NCBI RefSeq assembly: GCF_006385175.1 | Contig: NZ_VFIY01000015.1 | Span: 250,501 to 314,500 of the forward strand | Direction: 5' to 3' | DNA: 64,000 nucleotides | Origin: Emcibacter nanhaiensis | Lineage (GTDB): Bacteria; Pseudomonadota; Alphaproteobacteria; Sphingomonadales; Emcibacteraceae | Shown here: piece by piece, positions 10,273 through 17,870 of the stretch | Layout: every line of letters starts with the position of its first letter | How positions within the stretch are numbered: the stretch's first letter is position 1 | Made by a program: the position numbers and the translations under genes | The notes under the pieces: model-generated | Database searches by the model: none | Seen by the model: the letters and a program-made list of their open reading frames with translations, nothing else | What the model was told of the DNA's origin: nothing

Positions 10273-12681
10273 TTGGCTAACAGACGGAAAAGTATAAAGA
10301 AATCTGCCAAAAAGGCCCTTTTGCCCGAGGCAGTCACCGAATTCCTGAAAAAGAGCTTCATCCGGGGATGGGGCGCTGTTCTGGTGATATTTGCCCTGGC
10401 GGTCTACGCCTCTTTTCTCAGCTATGATACCCATGACCCGAGCTGGAATAACGAAGTTGTCGGCCCGGTCGGCAACTGGCTTGGGGCGCCGGGAGCCCAT
10501 GTGGCAGACCTGTTGCTCCAGTCCCTTGGTCTCGGGGCCGTGGTTCTCATCTTCCCCTTCATTACCTGGGGCTGGCGGGTGATCTCCCTGCAGGGCCTGC
10601 CGTTCCTGTTCCGCCATTTGCTGCTGTTGCCCATTGCGGTGCTGTTGGCCTCGCTGGCGACGTCCCTGTTTCCGGCCAGTTCCGCCTGGCCGCTGCCGAC
10701 AGGGATGGGCGGCATCCTGGGCGACCTGCTGAAAGATAACCTGATGTCGGTCTGGGCCATGACCGGGGTGGAGGCCTTTCCGGTGATCATGGGGCTTGTA
10801 TCCCTGGTTCTGACGGGGCTGTGCCTGCTGTTTGTGCTGGGACTGGAAAAATCCGAATGGCGGACCATCGGCGCCTTCCTGGTCTGGCTCGTGCTCAAGG
10901 GAGCAGGCAGTGCTGTTGCCGGGATACGGCGGGTGGCGGGCCAGTTGCGCCGGGAACCGGTGGAAAGCGGCAATGTCATTGATGTCAGCCCCAGGAAAGC
11001 CAAAGTGCGCAAGGAGCCGGTGATCGAAAAGGCTGCGGAGCCGGTGGAGCAGAAATCCATTCCCGTTGTCGACACGCCGAAACCGAAGGAAACAAAAAGC
11101 CGCCGCGAGGAAAAGGAAAAACAGCCGATGCTGGATATCCTTTCCGACGGCGAGTTTGCCCTGCCGCCGCTCAGCCTGTTGAGCAAGGCCAAGCCGCTGT
11201 CCAGGGAGGACCGGCTGTCCCGCGAGGCGCTGGAACAAAATGCCCGCATGCTGGAATCTGTGCTGGATGATTTTGGTGTCCAGGGAGAGATTGTCCAGGT
11301 CCGCCCCGGACCGGTGGTGACCCTCTATGAACTGGAGCCGTCGCCGGGAACCAAATCATCCCGGGTGATCAATCTGGCCGACGATATCGCCCGCAGCATG
11401 AGCGCCGTTTCCGCCCGTGTCGCCGTGGTGCCGGGCAAGAACGCCATCGGTATCGAACTGCCTAACAGCAAACGCGAGATTGTGGCGCTGCGCGAGCTGC
11501 TGACCAGTCCGGCCTATGAAGACAGCAAGGCCAAGCTGCCGCTCACACTGGGCAAGGATATCGGCGGCGAACCGATCATTGCCGACCTGGCCAGCATGCC
11601 GCACCTTCTGGTGGCCGGCACCACCGGCTCCGGTAAGTCGGTCGCCATTAACGTAATGATCCTGTCGCTGCTCTATAAGCTGACGCCGGAACAGTGCCGC
11701 CTGATCATGATCGACCCCAAGATGCTGGAACTGTCGGTCTATGACAATATTCCCCATCTGCTCACCCCGGTGGTGACGGACCCGAAGAAGGCGGTGGTGG
11801 CGCTGAAATGGGCGGTGCAGGAAATGGACCAGCGCTACCAGAATATCGCCAAGCTGCAGGTGCGCAACATCACCGCCTATAACCAGCGCCTGGAGCAGGC
11901 CCGCAAGAAGGGCGAGGATATTGTGCGCCGGGTCCAGACCGGCTTTGACCCGGAAACCGGTGAACCGGTTTACGAGGAGGAACATCTCGACCTGACCCCG
12001 ATGCCGATGATTGTCATCGTCGTCGACGAGATGGCGGACCTGATGCTGGTGGCCGGCAAGGATATCGAGGTGCTGATCCAGCGCTTGGCCCAGAAAGCCA
12101 GGGCCGCGGGCATTCACCTGATCATGGCGACACAGCGCCCGTCGGTGGATGTGATCACCGGCACCATCAAGGCCAACCTTGCGACCCGGATCAGTTTCCA
12201 GGTGACCTCAAAGATCGACAGCCGCACCATCCTTGGCGAACAGGGGGCGGAACAGCTGCTGGGTATGGGGGACATGCTCTATATGGCCGGGGGTGGCCGC
12301 ATTACCCGCGTCCATGGCCCCTTTGTCAGTGACGAGGAAGTGGAGCGGGTGGCGGACGAATTGCGCAAGCAGGGCTGGCCCGATTACCTCGAAAATGTGA
12401 CCGAAGAGCCCGAGGAGGGTTATGAAAATACCTTCCTGCAGCATGCGGTCAGCGACGGCAATGGTGGAAAATCCAGTGGCGACGACCTATATGATCAGGC
12501 AGTGGCTATTGTGGCCCGGGACGGCAAGGCCTCCACCAGCTATGTCCAGCGGCAGTTGCAGATCGGCTATAACCGGGCTGCCAACATTATCGACCGAATG
12601 GAAAAAGAAGGTGTGATCAGTGCCGCCAACCATGTGGGCAAGCGGGAAGTCCTGATCCAGGACCACAGCGGTGAAAGCTGA
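10273..12681 (+). CDS. ftsK: DNA translocase FtsK
   Basis: A full-length 802-residue FtsK/SpoIIIE protein. Four membrane helices occupy about residues 30-210, a charged linker follows (about 220-300), then the alpha-beta motor (Walker A GTTGSGKS near residue 450, Walker B IVIVVDEMADLM near 580) and a C-terminal winged-helix gamma domain that reads KOPS sequences (YDQAVAIVARDGKASTSYVQRQLQIGYNRAANIIDRME). FtsK anchors at the division septum and pumps chromosome termini so dif sites can be resolved. The start is a TTG at 10273 after AGGATT. The stop overlaps an out-of-use ATG; lolA starts 62 bases later, as in many alphaproteobacteria. Confidence 0.97.
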   Translation: MANRRKSIKKSAKKALLPEAVTEFLKKSFIRGWGAVLVIFALAVYASFLSYDTHDPSWNNEVVGPVGNWLGAPGAHVADLLLQSLGLGAVVLIFPFITWGWRVISLQGLPFLFRHLLLLPIAVLLASLATSLFPASSAWPLPTGMGGILGDLLKDNLMSVWAMTGVEAFPVIMGLVSLVLTGLCLLFVLGLEKSEWRTIGAFLVWLVLKGAGSAVAGIRRVAGQLRREPVESGNVIDVSPRKAKVRKEPVIEKAAEPVEQKSIPVVDTPKPKETKSRREEKEKQPMLDILSDGEFALPPLSLLSKAKPLSREDRLSREALEQNARMLESVLDDFGVQGEIVQVRPGPVVTLYELEPSPGTKSSRVINLADDIARSMSAVSARVAVVPGKNAIGIELPNSKREIVALRELLTSPAYEDSKAKLPLTLGKDIGGEPIIADLASMPHLLVAGTTGSGKSVAINVMILSLLYKLTPEQCRLIMIDPKMLELSVYDNIPHLLTPVVTDPKKAVVALKWAVQEMDQRYQNIAKLQVRNITAYNQRLEQARKKGEDIVRRVQTGFDPETGEPVYEEEHLDLTPMPMIVIVVDEMADLMLVAGKDIEVLIQRLAQKARAAGIHLIMATQRPSVDVITGTIKANLATRISFQVTSKIDSRTILGEQGAEQLLGMGDMLYMAGGGRITRVHGPFVSDEEVERVADELRKQGWPDYLENVTEEPEEGYENTFLQHAVSDGNGGKSSGDDLYDQAVAIVARDGKASTSYVQRQLQIGYNRAANIIDRMEKEGVISAANHVGKREVLIQDHSGES

Positions 12682-12743
12682 TGCCTTATTTTGATCCCGA
12701 TGGTGTGCTATCCAGTGGGCGTGCGGGAGTGTTGGGAAAGACG

Positions 12744-13439
12744 ATGAACAAATATTTTTTAGCCGGAGCTCTTGTGGTTTCCACCCTGCTGCCCGCGGGA
12801 CAAACGGTCCAGGCGATCGAGCGGACCCCCCGCGCCGAAATGAAAACGGTTGAAGCGGCGCCCACTCTGGTCACCGGCGAGGACCGGGAGAAGGTTATTG
12901 CCCGCATCGAGGAGAGCCTCAATAAAATCAAGAGCCTGAAGGCGCAGTTTATCCAGCGGGCCCCGGACGGCACCACATCCGAAGGGACCGTCTTCCTGGA
13001 GCGGCCGGGCAAGCTGCGTTTTGACTATGAAGACGACCTGCCGTTCCTGATTGTCAGTGACGGCAATATGCTCAGCTTTATCGACTATGAGGTGGACCAG
13101 ATTACCCGCTGGCCGATCGGCAAGACTCCGCTGGGGATCCTGGTGGATGATACTGTCAGCCTGAGTGGCAAAGTGGAAGTTCCGGAAATCATCCGGTTTG
13201 CCGGCCTGCTCAAGGTGCCGGTGATTGACAAGGAACGGGAAGAGCAGGGCTATATTACCTTGATTTTTGAGGAATCCGGCATGGAGCTCAAGGCCTGGGA
13301 AGTGATGGACGCCCAGGGCTATCTGACCCGTGTCGCCCTGGTCAATCCGCAGTATAATGTGGAAATTGACAAGGACCGGTTTACCTATAAGGATCCGCGG
13401 CCGATCAGCAAACGCCCGGTCCACGGCCCGCGCAAGTAG
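12744..13439 (+). CDS. lolA: Outer-membrane lipoprotein carrier LolA
   Basis: A 231-residue periplasmic protein with a signal peptide (MNKYFLAGALVVSTLLPAG, cleavage near VQA). The LolA core is plain: LNKIKSLKAQFIQRAPDG, EGTVFLERPGKLRFDYEDD and PLGILVDDTVSL. LolA accepts lipoproteins from the LolCDE exporter and ferries them across the periplasm. The ATG at 12744 gives the signal peptide; an in-frame ATG at 12681 overlapping the ftsK stop would bury it. Position after ftsK is conserved in the class. Its stop lies in a small inverted repeat. Confidence 0.93.
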   Translation: MNKYFLAGALVVSTLLPAGQTVQAIERTPRAEMKTVEAAPTLVTGEDREKVIARIEESLNKIKSLKAQFIQRAPDGTTSEGTVFLERPGKLRFDYEDDLPFLIVSDGNMLSFIDYEVDQITRWPIGKTPLGILVDDTVSLSGKVEVPEIIRFAGLLKVPVIDKEREEQGYITLIFEESGMELKAWEVMDAQGYLTRVALVNPQYNVEIDKDRFTYKDPRPISKRPVHGPRK

Positions 13440-13529
13440 TTGCGGGAACGGCGGAAAACCGGAAACAACATTATTTTCATGTAAAAACCCTTATAAAGCA
13501 ATAGGTTGCTAAATAATTGCAGATACACT

Positions 13530-13556
13530 CTTGAAAGTGGATGCTTTTCACTTATC
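13530..13556 (+). promoter_or_regulatory. Putative heat-shock-sigma-type promoter of the small RNA
   Basis: CTTG at 13530-13533, 17 bases, then CTTATC at 13551-13556. This resembles RpoH-class promoters of alphaproteobacteria (CTTG, 17 bases, C-Y-T-A-T). Transcription would begin near 13563, just before the first stem of the RNA below. The assignment is by eye, from memory of the consensus. Confidence 0.45.
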
Positions 13557-13562
13557 TCTAAT

Positions 13563-13705
13563 ATGCGAGCCGGGGTTGCTTATATGATCTACACTTCCTC
13601 AGATTATCCAGTTCCCCGGTTCGTCGGCAAGAGGTTTCCCTCCCCCTCCCTCTTGCCTAGCATAGCGTAGACTGCCCGGTCAGATGTGTCTGACCGGGTT
13701 TTTTT
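13563..13705 (+). ncRNA. Candidate trans-acting small RNA with C-rich (anti-Shine-Dalgarno) loop
   Basis: The gap between lolA and the next gene holds three consecutive stem-loops. Stem A pairs CGAGCCGGGG (13566-13575) with CCCCGGTTCG (13614-13623), 10 pairs with one G-U, around a 38-base loop containing CTTCCTC. Stem B pairs GGCAAGAG (13626-13633) with CTCTTGCC (13650-13657), 8 perfect pairs, exposing the loop GTTTCCCTCCCCCTCC. Stem C pairs CCCGGTCAGA with TCTGACCGGG around TGTG (13675-13698), followed by seven T, a textbook terminator. No plausible reading frame fits. A C/U-rich loop that can mask ribosome-binding sites plus a terminator is the design of many alphaproteobacterial sRNAs. The 5' end is estimated. 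Confidence 0.72.
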
Positions 13706-13777
13706 CTATTCGCTCCTTGTGCAAGCCCTGTCAGCGGATTAGTAATGAGCGGAAGAGTTATTCAGGAAGAACCCGTC

Positions 13778-14353
13778 ATGAGTGAAGAAGACATCGATAT
13801 CGAGGATTATCCCACACTCCTGCAGGTGGGGCGGTTTGCCCGGTTGATCCCCCGGACCAACTGGTTCCGCAATGTCGGGGAGCCGCTGAGCGCCGAGCTC
13901 AGGGAAAAGGCACAGGACTATCTTGATGCCCTGGGGTTTCCGGGCGCGGATATCGCCCAGATCCATGACTGGGACGAGGCGGCGGCGACCATGGAAACCA
14001 ACGACTGGAACAGTCCCTGGTGGGAAGCGGAAGAGCAGATACTGGCCGGTCTTGCCCTGAGCGCCCAGGAGATGCTTGATGAAGAGGCCCTGCGGGTGGC
14101 GCTGACCCATGTGAATACCCAAGCCTCCGAATATGTTACCGATAACCTGATTACCACAGCGGATATGTGGGGTATCCATGACGAGGAACTGATCCGGGCG
14201 GCCGCAGGGACCGCCATGCATTGCTGTTACCAGACGGCGCTGATGATTGCGGCCGGGGAAGAGGAAAATCATCCCTTTGCCCTCAAGTTTCAGCTTTATG
14301 AGATGGGCTGGTGGCCACTGGGCGTCGTTGGCAATACCTTCAATATTTTCTGA
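13778..14353 (+). CDS. Conserved-looking hypothetical protein
   Basis: A 191-residue soluble acidic protein with no signal peptide or membrane helix and no domain I recognise. It is rich in Trp and acidic residues (NDWNSPWWEAEEQ) and has a Cys pair in AMHCCYQTALMIAAGEEE near the C-terminus, ending in EMGWWPLGVVGNTFNIF. I place the start at the ATG 13778 because AGGAAG stands eight bases before it; an in-frame ATG at 13745 has no ribosome-binding site. Codon use matches the neighbours, so it is probably a real gene. It lies between the sRNA terminator and xth and could share a transcript with xth. Confidence 0.6.
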   Translation: MSEEDIDIEDYPTLLQVGRFARLIPRTNWFRNVGEPLSAELREKAQDYLDALGFPGADIAQIHDWDEAAATMETNDWNSPWWEAEEQILAGLALSAQEMLDEEALRVALTHVNTQASEYVTDNLITTADMWGIHDEELIRAAAGTAMHCCYQTALMIAAGEEENHPFALKFQLYEMGWWPLGVVGNTFNIF

Positions 14354-14399: not shown

Positions 14400-15197
14400 A
14401 TGACGACGGCACGACTGGCAACCTGGAATATCAACAGCGTCAGAACCAGACTGGAGCTGGTGGACCAGTTCATCCGGGAGGCGGCGCCGGATATTCTCTG
14501 TCTGCAGGAAACCAAGGTCCAGGACCATATGTTTCCGGTCAAATTCTTTGCCGAACGGGGCTATGAGCATGCGGCTCTCGCCGGCCAGAAAGCCTATCAC
14601 GGCGTGGCCACCTTTTCGCGTATCCCTTTTGAGAATCGTGGTCGCATAGACTGGTGCGGCAAGGGAGACGCCCGGCATGTGGAAGTGGTCCTGCCGGGCG
14701 GGGTCGCGCTGCATAATTTCTATGTGCCGGCGGGCGGCGACGAGCCTGACGCGGCCATCAATGACAAATTCGCCCACAAGCTGGATTTTCTCGATGAAAT
14801 GACCCGCTGGTCGGAGGACCTGCCAAAAGACGGCAAGCATATCCTGGTGGGGGATCTGAATATTGCGCCGCTGGAACAGGACGTCTGGGATCACAAGAAG
14901 CTGTTGAAGGTGGTCAGCCATACTCCGATTGAAGTGGAGCGGATGAAGGACCTGCAGGTGGCCCATGACTGGCAGGATGTGATGCGCCAGTTTGTGCCGG
15001 AAGAGGAAAAACTGTATAGTTGGTGGTCTTACCGGGCAAGGGACTGGCAGGCGGCCAACAAAGGACGCCGGCTAGATCATATCTGGGTCAGCCCCGCCCT
15101 GAAAGATACCCCCCGGTCCATGCAGGTCATGGAGGACGCCCGGGGGTGGGAGCGGCCATCGGATCATGCGCCGGTGCTGGTGGATTTCGAGTTCTAG
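14400..15197 (+). CDS. xth: Exodeoxyribonuclease III
   Basis: A 265-residue exonuclease III / AP endonuclease of the EEP superfamily, working in base-excision repair. Catalytic motifs are visible in order: ATWNINSVRTRL, DILCLQETKV with the metal-binding Glu, HGVATFSR, NFYVPAGGD, LVGDLNIAP with the catalytic Asp-Asn pair, KGRRLDHIWVS, and the terminal ERPSDHAPVLVDF with the Asp-His dyad. Length is that of the family. The start is the ATG at 14400. Downstream is the PAS_5 array. Confidence 0.95.
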   Translation: MTTARLATWNINSVRTRLELVDQFIREAAPDILCLQETKVQDHMFPVKFFAERGYEHAALAGQKAYHGVATFSRIPFENRGRIDWCGKGDARHVEVVLPGGVALHNFYVPAGGDEPDAAINDKFAHKLDFLDEMTRWSEDLPKDGKHILVGDLNIAPLEQDVWDHKKLLKVVSHTPIEVERMKDLQVAHDWQDVMRQFVPEEEKLYSWWSYRARDWQAANKGRRLDHIWVSPALKDTPRSMQVMEDARGWERPSDHAPVLVDFEF

Positions 15198-15293: not shown

Positions 15294-15797
15294 ATGTCAG
15301 GTTCGAAAAGGTTGGGATATTTTGCCGAAAAGGAGTTGGCTGAGGAGGAAATTCCACAGCGGCATCCGGTCAGGTTATTCGCAGATCACTGGCGAGACAT
15401 CGGTGGTGACAAATCCATACCTGCGCGAAAAGATTTTTCACCGATCAGAATTCCAAATTTGTTGCCCTATGTTGCGGTGGTGGAATTAGTGGACACCGAA
15501 GAAGGTCCTGATCTCAGGACACGTCTGGAAGGGGAATATATTGTTTCTCTGAGCGGCAGAAACAATCGGGGGCATTCACTGCGGAATTTAATGAGTGAAG
15601 AACGCTTCCAGAAGCGTCTGGCAGAAGCCCGGAAGGTACTCAAATCGGGACAAGTATATTTCAGTGTCAATGATCTGCTTGATTACCGGAATGAGAGTCA
15701 TACTGTCATTCGCGGTATTTTCCCCTTCCGAATGAACGGATCCGAGACAGGACAGGTTTTTATCGTTTTGGCCGATAAAGACAGCTCCATCGTCTGA
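15294..15797 (+). CDS. PAS_5-family protein, tandem paralogue 1
   Basis: A 167-residue cytosolic protein of the PAS_5 (PF07310) type, an alphaproteobacterial family with a PAS-like fold and no known ligand or output. The shared core is HPVRLFADHWRDIGGD, a DFSPIRIPNLLPYVAVVEL strand-helix segment, TRLEGEYIVSLSGR, and a terminal GQVFIVLAD strand. There is no output domain, so it may act by protein interaction. Compared with typical family members (a W-R..R-P.R.D..P..I...L..L pattern) all core positions are kept. The start ATG has a weak ribosome-binding site. Base composition is a little lower in GC than xth. Confidence 0.8.
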   Translation: MSGSKRLGYFAEKELAEEEIPQRHPVRLFADHWRDIGGDKSIPARKDFSPIRIPNLLPYVAVVELVDTEEGPDLRTRLEGEYIVSLSGRNNRGHSLRNLMSEERFQKRLAEARKVLKSGQVYFSVNDLLDYRNESHTVIRGIFPFRMNGSETGQVFIVLADKDSSIV

Positions 15798-15913
15798 AAG
15801 TGAGCGGATTTTAGCTGGCCCGTCCCAATATTTCCTGTTTGTAAGCCTTGGCAAATATTTTAACCATGTAGCATTATGTGCTAATTTTGAATTTCATTAA
15901 TAGTTTGTTAACT

Positions 15914-15941
15914 TTTTGGTAAGTTTTTGCAGTGTAAATTT
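15914..15941 (+). promoter_or_regulatory. Upstream block shared by PAS_5 paralogues, copy 2
   Basis: Second copy of the 28-base block seen at 15227-15254 (24 of 28 identical), again ahead of a PAS_5 gene, preceded here by GTTAAC. Confidence 0.55.
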
Positions 15942-15979
15942 GCCAAAAAAATATGCAAATAAACCCAGGCGATTCATCC

Positions 15980-16480
15980 ATGTCCCCTCAAACCTATGTG
16001 GAATACCTATCCGAAACCGTTGTGAAGGAAGAAGATATTCCACAGCGGCATCCGGTCAGGTTGTTCGCAGACCACTGGCGGGAGCTCGGCCGTGATGGTT
16101 CGATCCCGGTCCGCAGGGATTTTTCGCCGGTCAAGGTGCCCGCATTGCTGCCTTATCTCGTGGTCCACGAACTGATACAGACGGAGCAGGGGCCGGATCT
16201 GATGACTCGTCTCGAAGGGGAATTTTATGTGTCCCTGAACGGCAAAACGAACCGGGGGCACTCCCGGCGGAGGGTTATGAACGAGGAGCGATTCCAGATG
16301 CGTCTTAAGGAAACGCAGGACGCCCTTGAAACCGGGATTGTTCGCTTCAGCTTGGTGGAACTTCTCGATAGCGAGAAAAAATACCACAAGGTTTTCCGCG
16401 CTGTATTTCCCTTCAGGTCGAACGGATCACAGAGCGAGCAGGTTTTCGTTGTCCTGGCGGATGAAAATACATCCCTTTGA
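15980..16480 (+). CDS. PAS_5-family protein, tandem paralogue 2
   Basis: A 166-residue paralogue of the previous gene. The N-terminal segment DIPQRHPVRLFADHWREL is nearly identical to copy 1 (EIPQRHPVRLFADHWRDI), while the C-terminal half has diverged widely. I prefer the ATG at 15980: it gives the same N-terminal length as copy 1 and has AGGCG upstream; the in-frame ATG at 15953 has no ribosome-binding site and crowds the upstream block. The 182-base gap before it carries its own putative promoter, so the four genes are probably not a single transcript. Function unknown. Confidence 0.78.
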   Translation: MSPQTYVEYLSETVVKEEDIPQRHPVRLFADHWRELGRDGSIPVRRDFSPVKVPALLPYLVVHELIQTEQGPDLMTRLEGEFYVSLNGKTNRGHSRRRVMNEERFQMRLKETQDALETGIVRFSLVELLDSEKKYHKVFRAVFPFRSNGSQSEQVFVVLADENTSL

Positions 16481-16679
16481 GGGAAGACGGGTCTGCGCGA
16501 TGTCCGGCAACTGCTGATTCGACGTCAAACACTATTGTAATTTTCCGATTTCCCGGGCCGGTTCCTGACGGCTGTTCTCTCAAGGATGGTTTTATTTCTC
16601 GTGCGGTTACTTTTTGGTAATCGATTTCCTGTAAAAATTGTAGAGTATTACAGACATTATTTATCGGGGTTCGGGGAGT

Positions 16680-17180
16680 ATGAGGGAAACGCAGAAATTA
16701 AAATACACCTCTTATCGGAAGATATCTGACCAGGAGGTGCCTGCGGATCATCCGGTCAGGTTGTTTGCCGATCATTGGCGGAAACTGCGCGGCGACAGGC
16801 CAATCCCCGCACGGCAGGACTTCTCACCCATTAACGTACCGGTCCTGTTGCCCTATCTGGTTGTACTGGAACTTACCGAGACGGATGACGGCCCGGATCT
16901 CCATACCCGCCTGGAAGGTGAATATATGATTTCCCTGACCGGAAGAAGCAATATGGGGGCGTCGGCACGGCATGTCATGGAAGAAGACGGATATTTTGCG
17001 CGACTGCAGGAAGCCAGGGAAACCCTAGGAAACGGGGAAGCGCAATTTGCGGAAATCGAGGCGCTGGATCATAAAAACAAGACCCACAAACTGTTACGCG
17101 GCGTTTTTCCCTTCGTCCTCGACGGGGACAGGAAGGGACAGATTTTTATTGTTGTCGGCGAAAATGGAATGAGCCTGTGA
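16680..17180 (+). CDS. PAS_5-family protein, tandem paralogue 3
   Basis: A 166-residue paralogue: VPADHPVRLFADHWRKLRGD, DFSPINVPVLLPYLVVLEL, TRLEGEYMISLTGRSN and GQIFIVVGE align without gaps to copies 1 and 2. GGGGAG precedes the ATG closely. The intergenic stretch 16481-16679 contains TTACTTTTTGGTAA, a short inverted repeat (TTAC/GTAA) that overlaps the reduced form of the shared upstream block. Downstream, a small hairpin (GAGCCTG/CAGGCTC, 17199-17217) could end transcription but lacks a good T run. Confidence 0.78.
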   Translation: MRETQKLKYTSYRKISDQEVPADHPVRLFADHWRKLRGDRPIPARQDFSPINVPVLLPYLVVLELTETDDGPDLHTRLEGEYMISLTGRSNMGASARHVMEEDGYFARLQEARETLGNGEAQFAEIEALDHKNKTHKLLRGVFPFVLDGDRKGQIFIVVGENGMSL

Positions 17181-17357
17181 GGGTTTCTCCCTGCCCCGGA
17201 GCCTGTTCCCCAGGCTCTGTTGGATTTTAACCTCCAATATATTGTGCTTATCACAAGCGAATATAGTATATTACCATTGCATGGTCGTTTCCTGCTCCAG
17301 CGGCTTACAAATAACGGGGACTGAAAGGGTGAAGGGAAAAAGCCTTCATGTGTACGG

Positions 17358-17870
17358 GTGACAGATCTGCCGAAACTTGCCTATACATCCTACGAAGGAA
17401 TTGAGCTGGATGATCTGCCTCCTGTTCATCCGGTCAAGCTGTTTGCGGATTACTGGGCCGGCCTGAAAGGAGATCAGCCCGTGCCCTGGCGCAGGAAATT
17501 TTCCCCTCTCGATGTGCCTTCTCTTCTTCCCTACTTGGTGGTTCTGGAGCTGGTGGATACGGAACGGGGACAGGATCTGAGGCCCCGACTGGAGGGGGAA
17601 TATCTGGTCGCGCTTGCCGGTAAAGGGAATATCGGGAATTTCCTGAAAGACGTTCTGGAGCCCGGACAATATGAATTGTGCTTTCGGGAAGTCCATCAAA
17701 TCATGGAAACCAGCCAGCCGATCTTTTCAAAAATCGAGGCGACAGATTTTGAGGGTGGCGAACACCTGCTGTTGCGCGGCATGTTCCCCTTTTGCCTGGC
17801 GGACGGGGAAATCAGGCAGTTCTTTATCGTGCTGGCAGACAGTGTTATTTCAGCCCGGAAGCGCCGCTAG
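17358..17870 (+). CDS. PAS_5-family protein, tandem paralogue 4
   Basis: A 170-residue, most diverged member: LPPVHPVKLFADYWAGLKGD, KFSPLDVPSLLPYLVVLEL, PRLEGEYLVALAGKGN and RQFFIVLAD mark the same fold. The only usable start is a GTG at 17358; an in-frame stop lies a dozen codons upstream and no ATG is in frame. There is no strong ribosome-binding site, so its translation may be low. The stop codon overlaps the folB stop on the other strand (CTAG at 17867-17870). The shared upstream block is not evident here. Confidence 0.72.
   Translation: MTDLPKLAYTSYEGIELDDLPPVHPVKLFADYWAGLKGDQPVPWRRKFSPLDVPSLLPYLVVLELVDTERGQDLRPRLEGEYLVALAGKGNIGNFLKDVLEPGQYELCFREVHQIMETSQPIFSKIEATDFEGGEHLLLRGMFPFCLADGEIRQFFIVLADSVISARKRR

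Follow-up and report, generated by a model that had tools for sequence, protein, structure and literature searches.

The locus and its putative small RNA

In this work, we examine a putative small RNA (sRNA) of Emcibacter nanhaiensis, a member of the alphaproteobacterial family Emcibacteraceae. It lies on the plus strand at positions 13563-13705 of a 64,000-nucleotide (nt) stretch of this genome that we call the window (contig NZ_VFIY01000015.1, positions 250,501 to 314,500). The computations confirm the three stem-loops seen here and support a structured, conserved and apparently non-coding RNA with a C-rich loop. Three genes, all on the same strand, serve as syntenic markers around it: lolA upstream (12681-13439; PF03548, E 1.7e-26) and, downstream, a gene for a conserved hypothetical protein of 202 amino acids (13745-14353) followed by an xth-like gene for exonuclease III (14400-15197; PF03372, E 7.1e-26), whose name is taken from its protein family and from the RusT locus described below. 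The order in the window is lolA, the RNA, one hypothetical gene and xth. The hypothetical protein matches nothing in Pfam at E 0.001 and nothing in NCBIfam near the cut-off; its profile matches 76 of 372 genomes of the class (E up to 1e-10), and its gene adjoins xth in many loci.

The minimum free energy (MFE) of the RNA is -62.8 kcal/mol, to be compared with a mean of -37.78 (standard deviation 3.84, n=200) for its shuffles, none of which is as low (z -6.52); the minus strand also beats its own shuffles, but less so (z -3.97). In the MFE fold, stem-loop 1 (H1, 13565-13624) is made up of an outer stem of 11 pairs and nested stems of 3 and 7 pairs, and ends in the apical loop ACACUUCCUC at 13591-13600. 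Stem-loop 2 (H2, 13626-13657) has 9 pairs and a C-rich loop of 14 nt, UUUCCCUCCCCCUC (13635-13648), which is the putative seed. The apical loop of H1 is likewise pyrimidine-rich, and CTTCCTC is present in 22 of the 27 RNAs of the family. A linker (13658-13673) comes next, in which most of the relatives that we place in group A form a short GUGC/GCAC hairpin (SL3), unformed in the MFE fold of the window RNA. The last stem-loop and its U-run (13674-13705) constitute an intrinsic terminator, according to both the fold and a terminator scan: its stem (13674-13699) has 11 pairs, one of them G-U, a 4-nt loop and a T run of seven, and it is the single site that the scan finds in the region, on the plus strand. 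An earlier note, made from the sequence alone, had described three consecutive stem-loops here, and its coordinates and stems are right, given its way of counting pairs; its 8-pair stem with a 16-base loop is what we describe as 9 pairs and 14 nt by counting the closing pair. Its terminator with seven T was also correct, and the RpoH-type promoter that it saw upstream is supported by the computations.

The promoter

This putative promoter, CTTGAA-N15-CTTATCT (13530-13557, plus strand), is of the RpoH1 type, and the 5' end of the RNA is placed by it. The two boxes lie at 13530-13535 and 13551-13557, separated by a 15-nt spacer, and the predicted start is near 13563. It agrees at 11 of 13 positions with CTTGAA-N15-16-CCTATAT, the RpoH1 consensus that PMC4843759 quotes from Barnett et al. 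(2012).

The conservation of this element was assessed by two tests, both scanning whole gaps. In 22 of the 28 Emcibacteraceae gaps the best match reaches at least 11 of the 13 positions, and four matches are perfect, while mononucleotide shuffles reach 11 in 10 of 840 cases. A looser RpoH1-like form occurs in 20 of 27 gaps; in 100 dinucleotide-shuffled sets, the mean count is 0.34 and the highest is 3. The best match is located 233-286 nt before the hypothetical gene in 25 of the 28 gaps, the exceptions being L025, L031 (which has no RNA) and L037. Promoter windows picked earlier had been selected for starting with TTGA(A/C) or TTGTAA, which makes their -35 counts non-independent. No sigma-70-like site is found on the plus strand of the gap. 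On this evidence from sequence, RNA polymerase carrying RpoH1, the heat-shock sigma factor, most likely starts the RNA in the Emcibacteraceae. Control of the RNA seems to differ between lineages, because relatives beyond this family more often carry ATTGAA or GTTGAA as the upstream element. The strict RpoH-type pattern, CTTG-N-CYTATNTNNG, points to no regulon, since it has 6 matches in the own genome versus 13 in the control.

Conservation and covariation in the Emcibacteraceae

A BLAST search with the 143 nt gives matches in 9 of 99 genomes, its own included, all of them of the same family; the hypothetical gene and xth are found at all nine loci, and lolA is visible at seven. Searching with the hypothetical protein yields loci in 28 of 32 genomes of the family, the remaining four (53-67% complete) having no match. 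In 27 of these 28 loci, the hypothetical gene is preceded by an RNA of the same build, and 23 of the 27 have lolA upstream of that RNA. In L015, L018, L020 and L033, the RNA and the hypothetical gene stay paired without lolA upstream. A pattern scan of contigs gives 15 matches, 13 of which carry the locus genes and are 100% identical to loci of the same family; the other two, in a deltaproteobacterial and an acidobacterial metagenome-assembled genome, have no locus genes. In the related genomes of L012, L013 and L014, the terminator stem is extended by repeats like TTCTGGAAGTA.

The RNAs of the family fall into group A (alignment A4, 12 sequences) and group B (alignment A3, 11 sequences). L012-L014, with their long terminator insert, and L037 were excluded from both alignments, group B was excluded from A4, and L031, having no RNA, was excluded from all RNA alignments. 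A third alignment, A6, contains 14 sequences of the class from other families, with L101, L122, L125, L087, L154, L155 and further class loci excluded. Pairs changed on both sides amount to 20 of 39 in A4, 15 of 31 in A3 and 34 of 43 in A6, counts that are not probabilities, since the aligned rows are related. None of 500 shuffles has as many two-sided changes in any of the three alignments, and slid structures give 3-9 (A4), 2-4 (A3) and 6-19 (A6). The proportion of cells that pair is 91.0% in A4 (84.3% in shuffles, 35.7-42.1% in slid structures) and 97.9% in A3 (92.5% and 36.2-53.8%, respectively). The 500 shuffles never reach the values observed for A3 and A4, save for one shuffle on one group-B measure. 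The stem covariation that the earlier note had proposed to look for is present in both groups. In A4, 13 of the 16 pairs in the outer and inner helices of stem-loop 1 changed on both sides. In stem-loop 2, the outer pairs covary and the inner GAGG/CCUC pairs are near-invariant; these inner pairs and the loops scarcely vary across relatives. The terminator covaries in A3, A4 and A6.

A covariance model trained on 12 group-A sequences, R1, recovers all 11 group-B sequences, which its training had not included, with E from 2.0e-16 to 2.5e-5. With E up to 0.01, R1 has one match in the own genome and matches 33 genomes in a 296-genome sample of the order; 26 belong to the same family, and seven are weak matches in other families, corresponding to four loci, none of them near the marker genes.

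Related RNAs across the class

In a 385-genome sample of the class, R1 matches 17 other genomes at E up to 0.01. Three of these matches (L087, L088 and L101; E 1.9e-5, 2.7e-5 and 0.0082) lie between lolA and the hypothetical gene, within about 1.5 kb, although R1 carries no gene information. The R1 match of L085 coincides with a site of a second covariance model, R2. Reading the gaps upstream of the hypothetical gene reveals RNAs of the same plan in other families, with a long first stem-loop, often carrying a loop of six to eight C, then a second stem-loop whose loop is, for example, AUCAUCCCCUCC, followed by a small GC hairpin and a GC-rich terminator. R2 was trained on the 14 sequences of A6; with E up to 0.001, it matches 47 of the 385 genomes of the class. 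The neighbourhoods of 44 of these 47 matches (all save G661, G381 and G524) were read over at least 1.5 kb on each side: lolA, the hypothetical gene or xth is near 34 of the 44, and near 20 of 30 when the training genomes are left aside, several of these 20 coming from genera or families of the training genomes. Over the loci given to it, and with E up to 0.1, R2 also recovers 10 of the 27 RNAs of the Emcibacteraceae: L037 (E 3.2e-8) and nine others (E between 2.3e-5 and 0.051).

Although widespread in the class, the RNA is not universal. Short gaps without such an RNA are found in the same order (L039, L105, L108, L109) and in the class (L123, L124, L126, L127, L147, L169-L171, L173). Among 30 class loci where neither lolA nor xth was found, the RNA is present in four (L154, L155, L160, L166); the stretches L150-L189 stop some 100 nt beyond the hypothetical gene, so that xth may fall outside them. 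A search of plasmid records with one class sequence gave no match.

Some RNAs of this kind are found in other surroundings. In f12, L211, L212, L225 and L226 have a class-type RNA some 0.8 kb downstream of lolA, and their stretches contain neither the hypothetical gene nor xth; L220 and L221 have the RNA with no marker genes in 14 kb. In f87, L227 (from 6067) and L230 (from 5167) share an R2 match with a CCCCUCU loop and a GCGCCCGG terminator, without marker genes in the stretch read; this RNA is possibly a paralog or another C-rich sRNA. Two further observations concern neighbouring sequence. L225 contains a Guanidine-II riboswitch above the gathering score at 10864-10908, and, in the window, four consecutive open reading frames (ORFs) of 166-175 amino acids at 15294-17870 (starts 15294, 15953, 16680 and 17358) have the look of tandem paralogs, the first being PAS_5 above cut-off and the second just under it.

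Comparison with RusT and other known sRNAs

A literature search for an sRNA between lolA and xth, which reached few subscription papers, gave a single paper that fits, the report of Vogt et al. (PMC11005374) on RusT (CCNA_R0199), a 118-nt RNA located between these two genes in Caulobacter crescentus. A search for RusT together with NtrYX led to this paper alone, and a later paper on Caulobacter cites it. According to Vogt et al., RusT forms four stem-loops by probing, the terminator being the last, and is an Hfq-dependent sRNA, with Hfq at SL3 (nt 72-87). Its conserved pairing region spans nt 45-57, and compensatory changes in the cases of CCNA_00210 and ompW support the role of C53, in the SL2 loop. 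RusT represses transporter mRNAs in trans and has many outer-membrane targets; it is under NtrYX control and induced by iron starvation, and its homologs are reported from the same locus in Caulobacteraceae close to C. crescentus.

The window RNA also lies between lolA and xth, on the same strand, and is likewise a succession of stem-loops ending in an intrinsic terminator. Its conserved C-rich loop is in the second stem-loop, at the position equivalent to the seed-bearing SL2 of RusT, and most relatives in group A, as well as many in the class, have a short third hairpin. When six class loci are numbered back 118 nt from an end set at the U-run, the CCCC motif of the SL2 loop falls within nt 45-56, a numbering that agrees with RusT in plan and is not a sequence comparison. 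The window RNA is probably a distant relative of RusT, as judged on locus and architecture. The view of the earlier note that the RNA cannot be assigned to any known family is overturned: its place and build point towards RusT, and related RNAs are found in other families of the class.

We also considered other known sRNAs. On the window, Rfam gives only a tRNA elsewhere at cut-off and nothing for 13563-13705, and Rfam 15 at curated cut-offs has no match to these RNAs in the loci of 41 relatives (scans of 14, 17 and 10 loci). The best sub-threshold match by bits is ar14 (RF02344), at 17.6 bits and E 0.36, versus a gathering score of 58.8; in the alignment it has a stem-loop with a C-rich loop and then a terminator, as in the window RNA. 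In 96 class genomes, six have an ar14 match at E up to 0.001 and none is over the cut-off. L113 and L119 (G316:C1:245431-245802) show two adjacent ar14 matches, of 56.9 and 52.9 bits, just under 58.8.

The CcsR RNAs, of the cuckoo type, have a C-rich loop. Their loop motif is CCUCCUCCC, which occurs in none of the 27 RNAs of the family. In Rhodobacter sphaeroides, CcsR1-4 are four stress-related RNAs with an RpoHI/RpoHII promoter, co-transcribed with the DUF1127 gene ccaF1 (PMC10253847). The window RNA also has an RpoH-type promoter, judged by sequence only, but R1 gives one match in its own genome instead of several copies, it lacks CCUCCUCCC, and no DUF1127 match is found among the six window proteins scanned. 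Membership in the ar14 or cuckoo families, which the earlier note had named for their C-rich loops, is not supported by these comparisons.

The Sigma-EcfG promoter motif is GGAAC-N16-18-CGTT, and its absence from all 28 family gaps leads us to reject GsrN. This Caulobacter sRNA is transcribed from a Sigma-EcfG/SigT promoter, its homologs are sought near sigT-phyR, and its exposed cytosine-rich loop pairs with target mRNA (PMC5869019); in its predicted fold, the window RNA exposes a C-rich loop as well. AbcR1 and AbcR2 (alpha-r15) of Sinorhizobium meliloti repress transport-protein mRNAs through two separate anti-Shine-Dalgarno (anti-SD) motifs, CUCCUCCC and UUCCCCUC, and the transcription of AbcR2 depends on RpoH1 (PMC8844928). 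The window RNA similarly has two pyrimidine-rich loops and an RpoH1-type promoter, but no Rfam match at gathering score. Finally, ChvR and PmaR are rejected: the former belongs to the chvR/recF locus and is not conserved beyond C. crescentus (PMC6237742), and the latter lies between two hypothetical genes in Agrobacterium and one Rhizobium strain (PMC6234868).

Proposed mechanism and alternatives

We consider it likely that the RNA at 13563-13705 is a RusT-like, trans-acting sRNA driven by RpoH1, whose loops pair with ribosome-binding sites (RBS). The computed support for this explanation consists of the structure, the covariation, the promoter match, the conserved place and the related RNAs in other families of the class. 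The sRNA, of about 143 nt, would be the Emcibacteraceae counterpart of Caulobacter RusT. Transcription would start at its own promoter downstream of lolA, through RpoH1 RNA polymerase, and end at the intrinsic terminator, and the RNA would be stress-induced. The stems would display two pyrimidine-rich loops, CUUCCUC in stem-loop 1 and UUUCCCUCCCCCUC in stem-loop 2, that would pair with the G-rich RBS of target mRNAs and block their translation. By analogy with RusT and AbcR1/2, pairing with RBS is the most likely role of the loops. The partner would probably be Hfq, and the targets probably mRNAs of envelope proteins.

Several points weigh against this explanation, and the first of them concern RusT itself. 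The window RNA has 143 nt versus 118 nt for RusT; one gene separates it from xth, whereas RusT is directly beside xth; and its MFE fold has three stem-loops, with SL3 unformed, where RusT has four. In the six renumbered class loci, the third hairpin begins at nt 62-67, versus nt 72-87 for the SL3 of RusT. RusT is under NtrYX and iron control and is not known to be under RpoH control, whereas the window RNA has an RpoH1-type promoter; moreover, TTGAAA with a TATATC-like -10 in relatives could be read as sigma-70 too. The orthology to RusT is deduced from locus and architecture. More generally, we infer transcription, the Hfq partnership, the loop pairing and the targets as well as this orthology.

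Other points come from the distribution of the RNA. One family locus (L031, in G017) has a short gap, no RNA and no R1 match, and in four of the 27 RNA-bearing loci (L015, L018, L020, L033) lolA was not found upstream within the stretch. Fourteen of the 17 R1 matches in the class are not near the marker genes. The same is true of 10 of the 44 R2 matches examined, four strong and six weak, the strong ones (L202, L204, L205, L208) having no marker genes in the 9-14 kb read (L220-L223). R2 also misses 17 of the 27 Emcibacteraceae RNAs, among them the window's own, and has no match in the own genome. Because it misses this copy, the link between the RNAs of the family and those of the class rests on L037, on the three syntenic class matches of R1 and on place and plan. 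As for the targets, complements of loop 2 number 10 in the own genome, versus 11 for the reversed control, and one of the 10 is the opposite strand of the RNA itself. Another covers the RBS of a lipoprotein-like ORF, with 14 pairs (two of them G-U by reading) and -29.3 kcal/mol, but a search of 39 other genomes gives no match to this ORF. The anti-SD loop of the earlier note thus stands as a C-rich loop with a plausible action, without an excess of loop-2 complements over the control, and its interpretation is, on the whole, partly supported.

It is unlikely, but still worth weighing, that we are dealing with an independent anti-SD sRNA, in the style of cuckoo/CcsR or ar14, that arrived at this locus by convergence and is unrelated to RusT. 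The C-rich loop, the RpoH-type promoter, the sub-threshold ar14 match (E 0.36) and the failure of R2 to find the window's own copy are all compatible with such an origin. However, the score is far below the ar14 gathering score, CCUCCUCCC and DUF1127 are missing from the 27 RNAs and the six scanned proteins, respectively, R1 has one match in the own genome, and the occurrence at the same locus in many families favours common descent.

Slightly less probable is a cis-acting leader or attenuator of the hypothetical-xth transcription unit, whose hairpins and terminator would decide on readthrough. In the family, the RNA does immediately precede the hypothetical gene and its terminator comes before that gene, which, rather than lolA, is the constant neighbour in four of 27 family loci. 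Yet no alternative antiterminator pairing was noticed in single-sequence folds, in which no specific search for one was made, and in L225 and L226 (f12) the RNA comes after lolA, while the 11 kb read contain no hypothetical gene and no xth. Furthermore, the conserved loops are anti-SD-like, and RusT, at the lolA-xth locus, acts in trans (PMC11005374).

We find it very improbable that the region is a fragment of the lolA mRNA derived from its 3' untranslated region, or a plain terminator region without a regulatory role: the RNA is downstream of lolA on the same strand, but the promoter match keeps its steady distance from the hypothetical gene in 25 of 28 gaps, loop conservation and stem covariation go well beyond the needs of a terminator, and four of 27 loci have the RNA without lolA upstream. 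A short coding gene, the alternative for which the earlier note suggested seeking a conserved reading frame, is scarcely credible, as a 54-codon TTG frame does overlap at 13506-13670 but no frame is kept in the 27 sequences, where anchor spacings are distributed 16/7/4 (loop 1 to H2) and 15/8/4 (H2 to terminator) over the residues modulo 3.

Possible evolution of the lolA-xth sRNA

Small RNAs are described as fast-evolving and as frequently gained and lost (PMC6234868). With the RNA of E. nanhaiensis read as a RusT-like sRNA, we lean slightly towards the view that the lolA-xth neighbourhood has held one sRNA since early alphaproteobacterial evolution. Scaffold and place would have been kept, while promoter and seed loops would have been rewired by lineage, with NtrYX and iron in Caulobacter, RpoH1 and heat shock in the Emcibacteraceae and, in several further families, loops with six to eight C. 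If true, this would be a deep case of an sRNA whose body persists while inputs and targets change. RusT, known from the Caulobacteraceae, would extend to many organisms, and heat-shock control would be predicted for the RusT-like RNA in Emcibacter nanhaiensis.
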